A stretch of 64,000 nt of DNA from Phlyctochytrium arcticum (taxonomy: Eukaryota; Chytridiomycota; Chytridiomycetes; Chytridiales; Chytridiaceae): positions 930,001 to 994,000 of the forward strand of contig JAHLKI010000003.1 of the NCBI GenBank assembly GCA_025602905.1, written 5' to 3'. Below are positions 9,480 through 17,731 of the stretch, one piece after another. The translations under genes were made by a program, and so were the position numbers. The stretch's first letter is position 1; each line of letters begins with the position of its first letter. The notes beneath the pieces are model-generated. The model had not been told where the DNA came from. It saw only the letters and a program-made list of their open reading frames with translations, and made no database searches.

Positions 9480-10442
9480 GAGAATCCGCATGAGCCATTT
9501 TCCTTTGCTGCTCAATAGTTCCACTTTACCCTACCTCAACCTCGTCCACCGCAAACCCCCGAGGTGCTTTATGTACCTGGTGGCCAACTGTCCACCAATA
9601 TTTTCGGCCCGTGCACCATTCCTGCAAGAACACAAAATGTTGTCGACTCCGCTGAATCAGCTGAGGTTTTGCTGGATTGTCTCATATGCCACGTCAGCGA
9701 TCAACACGCCCAACAACAACATGACTCTGCCGAAAAAACTTGGACAAACCGCTCCTCTCAAAAAACCAAGATTGACTGTGTACGCGACTTTTACCTGGAT
9801 ATGCACTCACGGGACACCTTGCCAACTAGCCATTGTGTTGTTTGCAATACCATGCAACCCGAAAACGACATGCTGTGCAAAGAGTGGCGGGTGCTTTTTC
9901 CTGAAAACAGTCCTTTGTTCAGCACTTTTTCCGCTTACAATGTCTTCAGTTGCGGATCTTGTTTTCCCACTGAGGGCACCTGCGAGACAGACATCTGCCA
10001 TGATTGTTTACTCTCTCTTGAAAAATCAAAGATTCCGGATGCCTGCCGTGTCAACAATCTATCTATTGGTTGCTCCCATCAATACCCACAAGAGCTACTG
10101 TGTCTCACTCCTCTGGAAGAGAGGCTGCTTGCCCGTTCTCAATCTTCAGGGTGGATTATCAAATTGGAAATACATCCATACAAGACAAATACTGACTACC
10201 GCAAGCTTCAGAAGGGCCACATTTCAGTATTTCCCAAATGTGTGCAAGATTTGGCCTCGAATGTCCTGCCGCATCCTGGTACTTTCCTGCAGGATAAAAT
10301 CGCCGTTTGTTTCATTGGACCAAGGCAGCCACCTCCAGAAGATGTTGCTTTTATGCTGGCAGTGCGGCCAGCTAAGATCCACACGGCACTACAGTGGCTG
10401 AAACAGCATAACCCGCTTCTCAACAACATCATCATCAGTTAA
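9480..10442 (+). pseudogene. Helitron-1 N-terminal block, DUF6570-like
   Basis: Frame of 292 aa from 9,564. Coding character already starts at about 9,480 but is cut by an in-frame TAG near 9,528. It has many Cys pairs, notably CHDCLLSL, a central PLEERLLARS-type motif, then GHISVFP and a closing VRPAKIHTALQWLKQHNP. This is the arrangement I know from the DUF6570 domain preceding Helitron helicases in fungi. It probably takes part in DNA or protein contacts; its function is not established. A CAG before GCAGGC at 9,470 is a plausible splice acceptor for an upstream exon. Confidence 0.7.
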
Positions 10443-10499: not shown

Positions 10500-11470
10500 A
10501 TGTGCCAGCCCCTGCAAAAATCACCTACAGAGCATGTTGAAACTTCACATTACACCCCACAACAAGACCGTGGCATGGAAAGCCCAGCCGAGCCTACAAC
10601 CGTCGAAGCAATCCTCGACGAAATGACTTCACCACCCACCTTTGATCTACCGGACAGGCTCTTTGATGAACCCCAAATGACCGCGTCTGGTTGTCTTGAC
10701 ACCACCAACAACTCAGCTACTGTACAGTAGTTCCCTTCCCGACAAATTCGCCCATATTCAAAATAGCACCTGGACCATGTCACAAACTTCCCCTTTGCAT
10801 CCTTCAACTACTATAGGCACCCGCACAAATTGGGATCCACTGATCGTGAGTCAACGTGGTGAAGAGTTTGCTGATTTAAATCACTCCGACTTCTTTCCCA
10901 ATGCATTTCCAACATTGTTTCCATTTGGGGCTGGAGGACCATTGCACAAGCCCGATAGTTTACTGCGTGAAATCAACTGGGGGTCTACCTTTTCCCTGAA
11001 TACTTGGGCTGCGCATTGTTTGCAAGGGCATGGTACAGTACGTACTTACATGATATCAACTGGGGGTCTACCTTTTCCTTGAATACTTGGGCTGCGCATT
11101 GTTTGCAACGGCATGGTACAGTACGTACTTACATGATATCAACTGGGGGTCTACCTTTTCCTTGAATACTTGGGCTGCGCATTGTTTGCAACGGCATGGT
11201 ACAGTACGTACTTACATGATATCAACTGGGGGTCTACCTTTTCCTTGAATACTTGGGCTGCGCATTGTTTGCAACGGCATGGTACAGTACGTACTTACAT
11301 GATATCAACTGGGGGTCTACCTTTTCCTTGAATACTTGGGCTGCGCATTGTTTGCAACGGCATGGTACAGTACGTACTTACATGATCCATTACTTCTTCT
11401 GCCAAGCAACTGACATGATTATTGGTAGGCGGTCATTTTGCAAAGCACCCGGTGTTTCCTTTCTTGATAG
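10500..11470 (+). pseudogene. Helitron-1 linker and start of the Helitron-like N domain
   Basis: A 76-aa Pro/Thr-rich linker (10,500-10,730) is followed, in another frame, by a stretch ending EEFADLNHSDFFPNAFPTLF, the FP-rich signature before the Helitron Rep region, then FGAGGP. The frame then runs into an 83-bp tandem array that shifts it. The last recognisable Helitron-type residues (YFFCQATDMIIGRRS) end near 11,440. The rest of the domain resumes after the viral insert at about 13,840. Confidence 0.65.
10972..11386 (+). repeat. Tandem repeat, five 83-bp units inside the Helitron gene
   Basis: Unit starts (ATCAACTGGGGGTC) at 10,972, 11,055, 11,138, 11,221 and 11,304. Units are almost identical; the first differs slightly (CTGAATACTT, GGGCATGG), so the later four are expanded copies. 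The unit length of 83 is not a multiple of three, so every extra copy changes the frame. It lies just upstream of the viral insertion. Confidence 0.97.
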
Positions 11471-11559
11471 CTGACATGCTCCTAAAGGCGTGCAATCGGC
11501 GTGTAAGCTATGTCAGACCGACTCGCATACCACAACAACAAAAACTAAAACGGCTCGTC

Positions 11560-12494
11560 ATGTCATATCGGCGGCGTCGCATTGCACGTCGTCGTCGTAC
11601 AAGGGGCCGCACCGCAAGAGTAAGCTACCGAAGGGCGTTAAACGTCTCACGGCGCCGCAGACCTACACGACGAACACGCAACAAAGGATCCAGCTATACC
11701 CGGGTTGCCAGACGGCCACGCCGATCAACGCATTATACACGGGCATCATCACGGCGTAGACGGCGTTAAGGGCATTTGTGTGGTCAAAGGACGTCAACGA
11801 CACACTTAATACAATCTTACGCCCCGGTCAAACCATTTTACCCGTTACTTCCCCGAATCGATATTTGCTAGAAAAAGTTCACACCACATATTTGTTCAAG
11901 AACCAAACGAACGTTTGTTGTGAGCTGGACCTATATACCGGTGTTCCTAAGCGAGATATCAACAATTTCACCGGAGGAGTCGCTCGACTTTTACCGGAGA
12001 ATTTGCTTGTCGATGGACTCACCCAGCAAATTATCACCACCCCGGTTCCCACTGGCCCCCCCACCACGCGGTTCATCGGTGCCACACCATTCATGTCCAC
12101 CACTTTCTGTCAGTTGTATACCATTAAAAACAAGCGTACTATTTCATTGGGTCCAGGTGGAGAACACGAACACATGTTCCGAATGCGGCCGAATTGTGTT
12201 GTTAGTAACCCCGCCGCTTCCGAGTTTGCTGTCTCAAGAAACTACACCTACTTCCTTCCCGCTATCGCGCGCGTGGGCGTTACGGAGACCGCAACGACAC
12301 ACGAAATCACAACTTCATTCGGAGAAGTCCTCGTTATGGCAGAAAGTTCGTACAAGTATATGGCGGTTGAGAAAAATACGCCTACCTGGTACCGCGAGAG
12401 CAACCTCTACTTCGAAAACACAGCCGGTCCATACCAGGACCAAAAGTTCATTTCCGAAGGTTACAACAAAGTAAAGAATGTAATGACCACCTAA
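11560..12494 (+). pseudogene. CRESS virus capsid protein gene, broken by one frameshift
   Basis: ATG at 11,560 opens a 70-residue, extremely Arg-rich N-terminal arm (MSYRRRRIARRRR...) ending in RRRRR and a stop at 11,767-11,769. Such arms bind packaged ssDNA and carry nuclear import signals in circovirus-like capsids. The body of about 240 residues lies in another frame from about 11,760 to the stop at 12,492-12,494. It begins FVWSKDVND and contains a CQLYTIKNKRTISLGPGG-type strand pattern, consistent with a single jelly roll. A one-base change near 11,760-11,775 would account for the break. A splice is less likely because no GT..AG pair is obvious. The capsid family cannot be named from sequence alone. 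Confidence 0.75.
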
Positions 12495-12499
12495 TGTAT

Positions 12500-13465
12500 T
12501 TAAAGTTCAAGAAGATGCACCCGGCGCTCAATAGCAGCGTCAGGGCCAGTAAACATATAAGTATTTCCAGTAAAGATTTTATAAACACCAGCAGGAATGT
12601 ATACAGTGGTATATCTACAATGAATGCTACTCCCAACATCAAAGTCCACCAAGTGTATCTGACTTGTCCTCGGCCACGCCCCCCGACCCGCCAGATCCCC
12701 GCAAAAACACATATCGTCAAAGATGATAGCTACATGATACCCCGCTCTGAAATGCTTCAGATCATCTGAGTGACGCACGAAAAGGCATGGTTTAGGAGCT
12801 TCTCTACGAGCCCAGGTCAGTTTCCCTCCCCCACTGGGTCCGACCAATACGAGAGCTCTATCTCGTTCCAGGTCAAAGTGCAAATCACGCAGTCCTGGTG
12901 AAGATACTTGGCCTTCAGATGCTTCAGTAAGTTCCAACGTCTCAACGCCAACTCGGCAACTTCGCCAGAATTCAGTGGCATATCCTGATGGTACTCTGTG
13001 TTCGTAACAGAATTGTAACCAGGAAGGATACGTTGAGAAGTCTATGACAGCAGTTGCAATATCGGGGACGATGGATATTCCGGAAGAGGTTCCGGCGGCG
13101 GAGTCGGGTCTTGAGGGTCTCTCACCCTCATCCAACCAGAACCCCTCCTTCTCGCAATACGTGACGGCGGCGTCTTGTTCACTTCGGGTACGCTTGGGTT
13201 TGACATTTGGGTGGACTCCGAGATAGTCCCACTGGGAGGAGAGACGGCGGTCGATAGGAGTTGGGTACTGGACGAAGGCGTGCACATGGTAACCGCCGTC
13301 GGAGTGGCGCTCGAGGCATACTCGCGTGAAGGTAGTGGCATTGAACAATCGGAACAAAAGCAGTATCGATCCAAGCAGGTCTTGGAGTTCTGGGATGTCA
13401 TCTTGCAAAAAAGGCAGTTGGGACCATGTGACAAAAAATGCTCTCCCCTTGAGCCTGAACGACAT
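12500..13465 (-). CDS. rep: CRESS virus replication-associated protein (Rep), uninterrupted
   Basis: Complete 321-aa frame, ATG at 13,465, stop at 12,500. N-terminal HUH endonuclease: motif I FFVTWSQ, motif II YHVHAFVQ (HxH metal site), motif III TYCEKEG with the nicking Tyr and Lys. Between II and III is a geminivirus-Rep-sequence-like DYLGVHPNV. C-terminal superfamily 3 helicase: Walker A-like GPSGGGKLTW, Walker B IIFDD, motif C KIFTGN, then an arginine-finger-type AIERRV near the end. Rep nicks and joins the viral origin and unwinds DNA for rolling-circle replication. The residue after the Walker A Lys is Leu instead of Ser/Thr, which may impair ATPase activity. An intact frame beside broken Helitron pieces suggests recent integration or retained use. 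Confidence 0.93.
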   Translation of the reverse strand: MSFRLKGRAFFVTWSQLPFLQDDIPELQDLLGSILLLFRLFNATTFTRVCLERHSDGGYHVHAFVQYPTPIDRRLSSQWDYLGVHPNVKPKRTRSEQDAAVTYCEKEGFWLDEGERPSRPDSAAGTSSGISIVPDIATAVIDFSTYPSWLQFCYEHRVPSGYATEFWRSCRVGVETLELTEASEGQVSSPGLRDLHFDLERDRALVLVGPSGGGKLTWARREAPKPCLFVRHSDDLKHFRAGYHVAIIFDDMCFCGDLAGRGAWPRTSQIHLVDFDVGSSIHCRYTTVYIPAGVYKIFTGNTYMFTGPDAAIERRVHLLEL

Positions 13466-13830
13466 AAAACTACTGGTTGGGGAGGGAGGGAGGGATGACC
13501 CCTCTTATAAGATTCGGGTCTTCCCCCCTTCCCCCCACCCATGATTGGCACCCACGGCGACGCATCATGGGTCACTACCCCACCCACGACGCCACCTTCA
13601 GCCCACGTGCGGTACAACAGGCCATGTGCCAAGAGTATTGTACCTGCGTGGCGGTCCCCTCATTAGCTACCCCGAGGTTAAGGTTAAAGCATCAGCGCCC
13701 GCTTAGGGCGCCTACTTGAGTCCCCCATCCGCTACTGCGCAGATGGCAGGGAGCGGGGGCGACCGACCCGTGGGTAGCAGCTCACCACCAATCCGGGCCC
13801 CGTCCCGGATCTGTGGAAGCGAGTAGGCCG
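13466..13830. promoter_or_regulatory. Viral intergenic region with candidate replication origin
   Basis: Non-coding, upstream of Rep. A stem-loop at 13,603-13,651 pairs CCACG..GGTACAA with TTGTACC..CGTGG, with a small internal loop, around a 20-nt loop that ends AAGAGTA. AGTATT across the loop-stem junction recalls the NANTATTAC nick motif of CRESS origins but does not match it. A second hairpin, GCGCCC-GCTTA-GGGCGC, lies at 13,695-13,711. CRESS origins normally sit in such a stem-loop between Rep and capsid genes, so the position fits; the exact site is tentative. Confidence 0.4.
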
Positions 13831-13839
13831 CCCGCAGGG

Positions 13840-15543
13840 CCATAGGACTGCGTTTGCCCAGCTGGAACAATCCATCGCCTCAATTACGCCGGAGCGGCTT
13901 CGAGCAGCAGAGCGCGAAATGCAAGACGGACGGATGGTTACGGACAAAGATATTCACAAACTCTTGAATGAAACGCGCTCCTATGGGCACAACACGCACT
14001 GTCCAATGAATCTCGACTCTACGCCCAAACAAAAATGAAATCTGCTTGTTGGCTATATGGCTTGCCCAACATATGGTTTTCCAGCAATCCGAATGACCTC
14101 AGCAACCCTGTCAACATCCGTCTTGCACTTCACCGCACCTACTGTATGCTTCGGAGGAGGCAAAATTCAAGATCGCCGAGTTCTCCAAGTCCATTCAATT
14201 TTTGCATTATGTTGTCAGAGATCCAGTGAGGTCCGCGATTTGCTTCAAACGGGAAATGGACAATTTCTTCAAGCGTTATGTCCGGTTGAACGAGGAAGGG
14301 GTTTTTCGGAAGGTATCAACGTATCTCGGGTTGGTAGAGACAAATGAGCAGGGTGCATTGCATTTGCATGGTATGCTTTGGTTGCACGGCAACATCAATC
14401 TCCCCACACTGCATCACGACGTATTGCAGCCAGGACAAGAAGATTACAAAAGGTGCGTGATTGAATGGGTGGATGATCTCTTTTGTGAGCTAATTATTGG
14501 CGTTTGTTTTCCAATTGGGTTTTTTGGACAACTTTTATTTTAGGATGTACGCTCTGATAATGATCTCTTTGCTGACTTAGAAACTTGGGAGGACTTGTAC
14601 AACAACATGAAGATGCCGGGGTGGCTGGAGGACAATTTCACCGACCTTGCAAACCACCAAGCACTGTATAGCCAAAAACACGTCTGCACTGCAACATGTG
14701 TGAAATACGCCATTCAGAATCGGTCGGCCGACTCGAAACCCCCATCCTGCGGGTTTCGATGTCCCAGATCTTTACACTCCTCCATCGATTTTAACGAAAA
14801 CGGCGACCTTCATATCAAACGTTCCCACGCTTTTCTCAACCGGTACAATCCACCCATTGCGGTCGGCCTACGCCACAATCATGACTAGACCTTCCTCAAT
14901 TCCACCTCGCAATGCCTTTCGACAATCTACTACACCACGAACTACGGGACCAAGCTGCTTCCACCCATGTACAAGAGGCTTGCGTTGGCTTCAACGCTGC
15001 TGGAACAAATTCCACAAAATCAAACTCCCGATAACCCCGATCCTTTGGAGTCCCAACCTCCATCTCCTTCTACTTCACGCCAATTTTTCATGCGGTGGGC
15101 CAATAATTTTCACGGAAGTTGAGAAATCCGTGGTCGAAGTATGTCATAACATACTGGGGTTTGAATTGGAATTCTCTTCCTTCCCTATTTGCGAAAATGT
15201 CAACCTGGAACCGCTCTATTATCGGATGACCCGCTTGATGAACCCTCACCTGGAGCTAGAAGGAAATGATGCCATGGATGATTCCATCACATTTACAACT
15301 CAGGGGACCTATGCTGACATCCTGACGGCGTACAAGGATCGAGGTCCCATGTTAGCCAATCTATGCTACTGGGAATACCGTCGCTTCGTGTCAATCAAGA
15401 GAGCTACTACTAGATTAAGTTCCAAAGTGATGGTATTGCCGTTTGCGGAAGGAAGTGCCTTAACGGGGCACTGGAAGCAGTGCTTGCGATCGCATACCGA
15501 CTTCACCTTACCGGTGATCAATGGTTACTTTTCAACAGATTAG
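13840..15543 (+). pseudogene. Helitron-1 Rep nuclease (HUH, Y2) region, multiply frameshifted
   Basis: Coding resumes with a helical stretch (FAQLEQSIASITPERLRAAE) and, after a frame change at about 14,030, MKSACWLYGLPNIWFSSNP, the NP-type motif of Helitron Reps. The HUH motif is LHLHGMLWLHG (about 14,358-14,390). A GTTTGT..TTTAG intron is likely at about 14,500-14,543. Further on are RHNHD, an in-frame TAG (14,886-14,888) and IYYTTNYGTK with the paired catalytic tyrosines. This nuclease would nick and join strands in rolling-circle transposition. At least four disruptions make it non-functional as it stands. Confidence 0.8.
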
Positions 15544-17731
15544 AGGAACAAGAAGACAACAAATATTTCCTAAGGTACCCAGTGATTGTATTCAAATAAA
15601 ATTACATCATGCTAACTTGAAATATAGGAACGCAACCTTGCTGCCGGCTTTCTTTGTGCCATGGGATTCCTTTCTATCTTCGCGTGAAAACCCAATCTCA
15701 ACCTGGACAAGATTGAAGTCTTCATTGCCAGCTCGTCTGGCAGCTGTGGTTGACGCTACAACCCTTTTGCATTGCTCGAAAGAAGGCGCACGGAGGGATG
15801 CGCGGATGTGGGCAGAACATGGTGAGCGCCTTGAAGAGTACTTTTTGAATGATGCTGGCAACAAAGACCATGAGGATCCAACCAACACCGAGGCACACGT
15901 TTTACAAGAAGACTCGGTCTTGTCCACGTTCTCGGATTTAGTCAACCACGTAACCAATACCCGGGCGGGGGTCATTCAAACTTCGGCTTCTTTACTTGCC
16001 CTAGGAGAAATGTTAACAAGTGGTCCGGGGGATTTGTCGGAGCTTGACCCACAACATTCCTTGTATGCCGACCTGTGGCGGCCATCAAATCACAAACATC
16101 TCTTGAACCAGACCACCAAAGCACAGAGACTTTTGGACACCAGCATCCTCCGGACCATACAAGGCGGTGACAAGAGTCCTGAGTGCACAACGCCCGGCGT
16201 CTTTCACAATGGGCCAGCTACACTCGATGGTGGCATGCCTTCCGTAATTCTGCATGAGAACGCAATTCCAAATATCTTCACCACGGCAACGGCAATTGCA
16301 TCTGAACAGGGGCTCAACAAGAACCAAAAAGCACTGTTCCTGATGGTAGCTGACGCGTTGAACCGCCACAAAAACAACCCCGATAACTGCGAACAATTCA
16401 TGAGTTACTTGGGAGGGGAGGCTGGAACTGGAAAGTCTAGGGTGATTATTAAAGCGTTCGCTATTCTTTTTGCACAGCTCGGGCAGAGCTCTGCCATCAT
16501 GTTCACGGCCTCTTCTGGGGCAGCGGCTGCGGAAATTGATGGTAACCCATACCACCAGACGTTCAGCATTTCGGACTGACCTGATGACAAAAGAAAAACA
16601 CCCCAAGATGACCCGGCCAGTTACTCATAACAAACCTTTTGGAGGATTGCCGGTGATTCTGCTCGCAGGGGATTTATGCAGTTCCCGCCAGTGAATGCAG
16701 TCACCGTAGGCATATCGCCCTCCGCGACCAATGCGCAAGCGGCCCCATCCACGTTGCGAGGGCGCTTGCTTTTTGCGGAATTCTCCAAGGTTGTGATGCT
16801 GAACAAACAAGTGAGGGCGCAGAATGATGTTCCATTTCGTGAATTTCTGACTCGCCTCAGGAGCGGCAAACAAACAAGAGATGATGCCAAAAGGTTGAAT
16901 GAACTTTGCGTGGAACCGGCAACATTATCGATAGCTGATGACTTGCGCATCGTAACGCCGTTAAATCGCCACAGATGGGAACTATCACTGGCCAAGGTGG
17001 CTGAATGGGCATCAAATAAAGGAAGCTTGCTCACGATATGCATCTCCACCCATACTTGGAAGGACTATACCCCCACGCCTGTCGATCTCTTGTCCGCGAT
17101 GTTGGTTGGAGATGAAACTAATTGGCCGGTTCCCACTGTTTTCCCATATACCCCAGGCATGCCAATCTGCGTTCTCAAAAATCAGTACGTGGGTCTCAAA
17201 GCTGCGAATGGCTCTATGTTCGAAGCTGTGGACATATTGTTGAATCCCATGGCAAAAGTTCATTACTACAGCCGCTCCCTGAGGATCCATGTGGGCAGCC
17301 CCCTTGGTATCATACTTCGATCAAACAATACCCGACACCTCAACTTCCCGAACCTCCCTCCTGGCACCATCCTGATACCCTCCATAACGACCAGAGTGCC
17401 TTGTACCGTGATGAATACCCGGCGGAAAGAGACGTGTTTGGGAAAGGGACTGCCTTGCACACCGGGTTTTGTCAGTACGGATTACAAGTCCCAAGGACCA
17501 ACTCTCACTAATGCAGTTGTCGGGCTGTATGGAAGGCACGAGACGGGAGGGGCTCCAGCAAAATGCGACTTTGTCTCTCTATATGTCCAATTGAGCCGCC
17601 CAACACTTTCTGCCAACCTATGGTTACTGAGACCACTCAATGTAGAAGAGTTTATTGAAGCGTCCCCTCCGCCCGAAATGACTGCAACTAGAGCTCGCCT
17701 AATTGCTTCATTGAATTCCATTTCATACTGA
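15521..17731 (+). pseudogene. Helitron-1 Pif1-type helicase, Walker B region deleted
   Basis: Frame of 352 aa (15,521-16,579) with Walker A GGEAGTGKSRVI, motif Ia TASSGAAAAEIDG, then two stops. The FGGLPVILLAGD motif III lies in a different frame at about 16,637. Coding resumes at 16,676-17,731 (351 aa): DKQVRA-like NKQVRA, then STDYKSQGPTLTN and FVSLYVQLSR, the C-terminal SF1 motifs. Compared with the second Helitron (46.4-48.1 kb) about 40 residues including the VIDEVSMMG Walker B motif are missing between DDPASYS and NKPFGG. The helicase would therefore lack ATP hydrolysis. Ends at a stop at 17,731. Confidence 0.85.

Follow-up and report, generated by a model that had tools for sequence, protein, structure and literature searches.

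Viruses with circular Rep-encoding single-stranded (CRESS) DNA genomes, BdDV-1 among them, replicate from a stem-loop whose nonanucleotide has a NANTATTAC-like consensus, and their Rep is established for the family as a nicking and joining nuclease. Whole-genome endogenous CRESS viruses occur in Entamoeba and Giardia (Naryaviridae, Nenyaviridae, and Vilyaviridae; PMC7493932), and among chytrids Batrachochytrium dendrobatidis carries an endogenous DNA virus, BdDV-1 (PMC11115238). Geminivirus-like Rep genes are found in Ascomycota and Basidiomycota, including a Rep-bearing transposon in Tuber melanosporum (PMC3198968). Endogenous CRESS sequences of fungal genomes fall near Genomoviridae and Geminiviridae (PMC6186406), and passive endogenization is treated in PMC7758297. 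The locus described here lies in a 64,000-nt stretch (the window) of Phlyctochytrium arcticum (Chytridiomycota, Chytridiales), namely positions 930,001-994,000 of contig JAHLKI010000003.1 in assembly GCA_025602905.1 (31.48 Mb, 91 contigs). Coordinates are those of the window unless a contig is named; contigs are abbreviated C plus number, the window being C3:930001-994000. A 2326-bp insert at 11518..13843 is very likely a near-complete but damaged CRESS-DNA virus with a geminivirus-type Rep, taken up in linear form where a Helitron had been broken.

As in Entamoeba and Giardia, Rep and capsid genes would lie together in the host chromosome, an arrangement that has served as a basis for assigning hosts to metagenomic viruses; those elements belong to other hosts and presumably to other lineages, whereas the P. 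arcticum insert is truncated and sits in a Helitron with known empty sites. The initial annotation of this stretch took endogenous copies to be usually Rep fragments, a statement to be qualified by these published integrations with Rep and Cap (PMC7493932). BdDV-1 is alike in being an endogenous DNA virus in a chytrid. The Ascomycota and Basidiomycota set shares a geminivirus-type Rep in fungal chromosomes, once linked with transposase genes, but is mostly Rep (302 Rep versus 3 capsid sequences, all hosts together), and in Tuber the element is a transposon bounded by terminal inverted repeats and present in multiple copies, whereas no second copy of the P. arcticum insert was found. Pleurotus Helitrons also enclose virus-like DNA, but with herpesvirus-like and caulimovirus-like domains and no CRESS genome (PMC4289320). 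In yam, Rep-bearing endogenous geminivirus sequences have been compared with Helitrons (PMC5014472); in that case it is the viral repeat that is said to resemble a Helitron, whereas in P. arcticum the virus interrupts a separate one. Among the matches listed in a search of open-licence papers, none reports this locus or a CRESS genome in a Helitron, although a published report may still exist. Endogenous CRESS viruses of genome length are known elsewhere, and the P. arcticum insert is a new, well-bounded case with host information. It points to chytrid fungi as possible hosts of a CRESS group met here almost only as unnamed short contigs, and its empty sites make an integration event readable base by base, from the ends of the viral DNA to the bases lost from the target and the probable filler.

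The borders are set by junction alignments with three Helitron copies that lack the insert. DNA of the downstream flank has 12 genomic matches besides itself, and three of these begin exactly at 13844: C3:1202.7k and C7:965.3k (∼94%) and C9:870.8k (84% downstream). The last Helitron stretch to the left (11315..11517, plus strand) is ∼93% identical to the C3 and C7 copies, both uninterrupted there. In these two (C3:1201-1203k and C7:965k) the upstream match stops at 11517 and the downstream match restarts at 13844 with 6 bases between, and a base-by-base reading finds ATGAAC in all three copies in place of the 2326 bp. The junctions therefore lack a target-site duplication and 6 bp of target were lost. 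In the C7 copy a 192-codon frame is open across the empty site and matches Helitron_like_N (7e-26). Because ATGAAC supplies two codons of this frame, the insert divides a Helitron protein precisely into two halves, just as the initial annotation had proposed. The borders given there, 11450 and 13830, required correction, and the genome search that it recommended finds three Helitrons without the insert (C3, C7, and C9) and no other with it.

Flanking coding DNA is of the RepHel type that defines Helitrons, Helitron_like_N plus a PIF1-type helicase, with broken frames in the window copy. Upstream, an open frame with DUF6570 (Pfam, 4.5e-26) occupies 9519..10442 on the plus strand. Downstream (13844..17700, plus strand) lie the remainder of Helitron_like_N (in 14097-14543; 39.1 bits, Pfam cut-off 28.9) and, its frames likewise broken, a PIF1-like helicase (21.7 bits, under the cut-off of 25.9), the pieces of which are matched by two Helitron copies at 78-91% amino acid identity. 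Compared with two copies, the window Helitron also lacks ∼113 bp at 16628, and the other copies are likewise incomplete or damaged. Across a shared 2.5 kb, three Helitron copies are 94.2-95.8% identical in pairs, C2 and C3 being the closest. Helitrons end in 5' TC and in 3' CTRR with a hairpin and insert between A and T; the window element aligns with two copies only as far as 17700.

On the minus strand of the insert, 12500..13465 encodes a CRESS Rep (HUH nuclease plus superfamily 3 (SF3)-type helicase), with 321 codons free of internal stops. Relatives number 123 proteins at E 1e-3 or better, 120 of them listed; the best four beyond P. arcticum are 62, 59, 56, and 57% identical, and their longest contigs span 1188-2623 bp. 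The sole organism named among the 120, apart from P. arcticum, is Arctopus echinatus-associated virus. In a 25-row alignment the HxH and YxxK columns of the HUH nuclease and the Walker and Asn columns of the SF3-type helicase are retained, and at one near-invariant Walker A position the window Rep is the sole departure. A pattern search finds a Walker A string in 118 of the 120 proteins, with T or S last in 112; the window Rep is one of six with another last residue, some of which are possibly chance strings. Geminivirus and genomovirus Reps are linked to this family by the Gemini_AL1 domain, matched by 22 of the 25 aligned members at E 0.01 or better, and by Rep proteins as the best Protein Data Bank (PDB) matches of the 25-row profile (1l2m and 7vg8). 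They differ in that the window Rep itself scores 20.3 bits, under the Pfam cut-off of 24, and that the insert's capsid has no detectable relation to theirs. Scans of IMG/VR with the Rep (3 stretches matching a pattern) and with the 25-row alignment (81 stretches) confirmed no relative, records near P. arcticum possibly being excluded. The open frame does not call for selection, because only ∼4% of substitutions create a stop and neutral decay would leave the frame intact with a probability of 0.68 at 1% and 0.32 at 3% divergence, indels uncounted.

The second gene (11520..12494, plus strand) is a probable capsid gene remnant with one in-frame TAG at 11757-11759. Protein searches with the piece after the stop return two proteins and a two-row profile returns five (P0121-P0125). 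One, P0121 (DFS34DRAFT_646093), is the gene model of the window locus itself, and the other four lie on contigs of 1907-2622 bp. P0122 aligns to 11487-12482 in a single frame, that of 11475 and 11760, broken only by the TAG, as in the alignment with P0122-P0125; because the empty sites identify everything before 11518 as Helitron, ∼35 N-terminal residues are missing. An arginine-rich open reading frame at 11563-11769 ("MSYRRRR") was considered as the N terminus and rejected, because it is the other frame that P0122-P0125 match; the lesion is accordingly a stop and not a frameshift. Reading the TAG as a residue under an alternative code is disfavored by reasoning, since other loci carry TGA, TAG, and TAA stops and plain decay is simpler. 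Rep P0005 and capsid P0124 both come from 2352-bp contigs and another Rep/capsid pair from contigs of 2623 and 2622 bp, the pairing being by equal or near-equal size alone. Residues 1-74 of P0121 correspond to 10500-10721 (100%) and residues 66-254 to 11925-12491 (96%); this public gene model, a prediction, splices Helitron 10500-10721 to capsid sequence at ∼11925-12491.

The genes converge, capsid (plus) ending at 12494 and Rep (minus) at 12500, 5 bp apart, which bears out the initial reading of their arrangement. The insert thus shares the layout of CRESS viruses, in which Rep and an oppositely oriented second gene make up a unit of ∼1.7-3 kb. Upstream of Rep, a TATA-containing inverted repeat (13497..13520, minus strand) recurs at C6 and C3b, and so at 3 of 5 loci compared; at C82a and C45 the 90 bases preceding Rep lack it. 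The intergenic region also holds, at 13537..13572, a perfect inverted repeat of 9 bp with 18-nt spacing.

The right end of the insert (13693..13843, plus strand) is related to a dispersed, structured genomic repeat, with 79% identity to copies on C45 and C84 over 13717-13824. These copies are near-identical duplicates, through which kinship extends to C8 (87%) and C20 (94% over 79 bp). Positions of the repeat outside the window include L038:4412-4561 (L038 being C45:116000-125900) and L046:1466-1645. A consensus fold fits three repeat copies, and 7 of its 48 pairs are changed on both sides, above all 500 shuffles, in a test of three sequences from which the structure was itself derived. A T stretch follows the C45 and C8 copies. 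The right-hand ∼150 bp are therefore probably not viral, judging by this resemblance, and ∼2.18 kb of the insert is counted as viral. The ∼150-nt repeat may be a small RNA or an element of P. arcticum resembling short interspersed nuclear elements. Rfam finds no family at gathering score in the window; a permissive search of 13480-13900 gives six sub-threshold microRNA matches, all in 13480-13549 and none in the right-hand repeat. Around the C45 copy none reaches gathering score, one sub-threshold antitoxin match lying outside the structured part, and a tRNA search found none. C45:116000-125900 and C84:10500-20400 are 99.96% identical across 9.8 kb and may be alternative haplotypes or a recent duplication in the assembly.

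The insert is not the only Rep locus in this genome. Ten Rep matches comprise the window and nine pieces at six other loci (52-73% identity; 41-75% for tblastn pieces): two on C82 (C82a and C82b) and one each on C6, C45, C35, and C3:909-910k (C3b), each truncated or broken. Capsid remains are present at C82 (62 amino acids, 92%) and at C3:909k (P0122 residues 31-71, 51%, E 5e-5). A maximum-likelihood tree of 80 Reps holds the window, five other loci, and 74 listed proteins; outside it are P0078-P0120 (43 rows), the C35 fragment, and two gene models, P0006 and P0009, from C82 and C45. Endogenous rows interleave with P0002-P0005, Reps of short unnamed contigs of 1.2-2.6 kb; the endogenous label needs 3 changes on this tree, and the starred branches force at least 2. 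Because of this interleaving, more than one integration of related viruses is favored by the sequences and a chytrid host is indicated; we infer that P. arcticum or its ancestors are, or once were, infected by this virus lineage.

In DNA alignments of C82 with the window, identity is 94% over the 190 bp of the capsid tail but 67% in the neighboring Rep, the drop coming at ∼12490. This break where the two genes meet suggests recombination between viruses, a hint of module exchange, although it may instead reflect gene conversion. The C6 Rep remnant (L034:4482-5347) lies directly beside an IS1595-type transposon with several genomic relatives. C3b (C3:909005-910353; L036:3506-4854) is a second CRESS remnant ∼31 kb from the window insert and contains part of the capsid start, the intergenic region, and the Rep start.

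The preferred explanation for the window insert is capture during repair, the simplest because the ends do not resemble a recognizable origin, target bases were lost, and one end carries probable filler. End-joining repair of a chromosomal break would have incorporated a piece of viral DNA severed inside the capsid gene, ∼150 bp of dispersed host repeat would have been added as filler at the right end, and the insert would afterwards have decayed, as the capsid stop and the atypical Walker A position suggest. The Helitron would be a landing site only, one of several copies in a chytrid chromosome, and the other Rep loci would derive at least partly from separate integrations of related viruses. 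The initial annotation's endogenous CRESS element with Rep and probable capsid inside a Helitron gene stands; its whole circle opened in the intergenic region does not, because the left border lies inside the capsid gene and the right end resembles a dispersed repeat.

Several points weigh against repair capture of a near-complete virus. The capsid assignment follows from position, size, the basic N-termini of the relatives, and company with Rep, so the gene is a probable capsid: at E 1 or better, none of the five capsid rows matches a virus capsid family in Pfam (one gives 0.28 to an unrelated family), and the capsid profile has five chance-level PDB matches, at E 1.2 or worse. The intergenic stem-loop claimed from the letters survives as inverted repeats, but the insert's intergenic parts, a region partly missing, hold no NANTATTAC-like nonamer with at most one mismatch; one-mismatch matches occur at C6 (1), C45 (3), and C3b (2). 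In the Rep tree, window/C82a and C82b/C3b are sisters, so old copying within the genome is possible for those pairs. Both border joins are known here from the assembly alone, and a 5-unit tandem array of near-identical 83-bp units stands next to the left border, within the Helitron (10968..11386, plus strand; Tandem Repeats Finder), where blastn finds one unit in the C7 copy. An artificial join of virus reads to the Helitron is nevertheless extremely unlikely given the capsid stop, the genomic repeat at the right junction, the clean junctions against empty copies, and the six further truncated or broken Rep loci.

Integration by the viral Rep, which would nick an origin-like Helitron sequence or Helitron single-strand intermediates and join the viral strand to it, would fit an insertion site within another HUH element and the position of C3b beside a different Helitron, and PMC7493932 calls CRESS integration likely Rep-mediated. 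Yet the insert starts inside the capsid gene, the empty site shows by eye no TATTAC-like or other origin-like motif, 6 bp are lost with no target duplication, and in C3:800-1230k 12% of the sequence is no more than 1 kb away from a listed Helitron domain. Rep-mediated joining is thus unlikely, and the earlier suggestion that Rep acted on Helitron intermediates finds no backing at the junctions. Transport in the other direction, with the Helitron picking up viral DNA during transposition and carrying it about, has precedent in the viral domains of fungal Helitrons and in a filler-DNA model for captured genes (PMC4289320). It is highly improbable here: the insert disrupts the coding domain of the Helitron itself, is absent from three related copies, and was found with no other Helitron copy in the genome, so that spread of the virus by the Helitron, as first proposed, is unsupported. 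A domesticated composite gene, with Helitron transcription running into the capsid, is what DFS34DRAFT_646093 would imply, P0121 matching both the Helitron stretch and the capsid; this model is a gene prediction, however, and the capsid gene is broken upstream of its capsid exon, which makes such a gene very unlikely.

The setting of C3b bears on whether chytrid CRESS viruses integrate preferentially at Helitrons, given that both produce single-stranded DNA in the nucleus and introduce nicks with HUH nucleases. Homology to a different Helitron starts no more than ∼10 bp from the Rep-side end of C3b, and protein matches there extend to residue 891 of 1909. The 3.5 kb examined on the other side of C3b gave no Helitron match, though a short one (residues 857-908) occurs farther out. 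Of the seven Rep loci, two thus directly adjoin Helitron coding DNA, each that of a different Helitron. With proximity defined as lying within 1 kb of a listed Helitron domain, the chance of two or more of seven is ∼0.002 if ∼1% of the genome is near a Helitron (an upper estimate from 127 matches, themselves a lower bound), ∼0.04 at the 4.6% of C3, and ∼0.2 if the 12% of C3:800-1230k is taken. That Helitron-dense region contains both loci, so a preference is not claimed and seems decidedly doubtful. The window as a whole is rich in transposons, with Ty3-like, RVT_2 (copia-type), Mutator-like element (MULE), and PIF1 frames.

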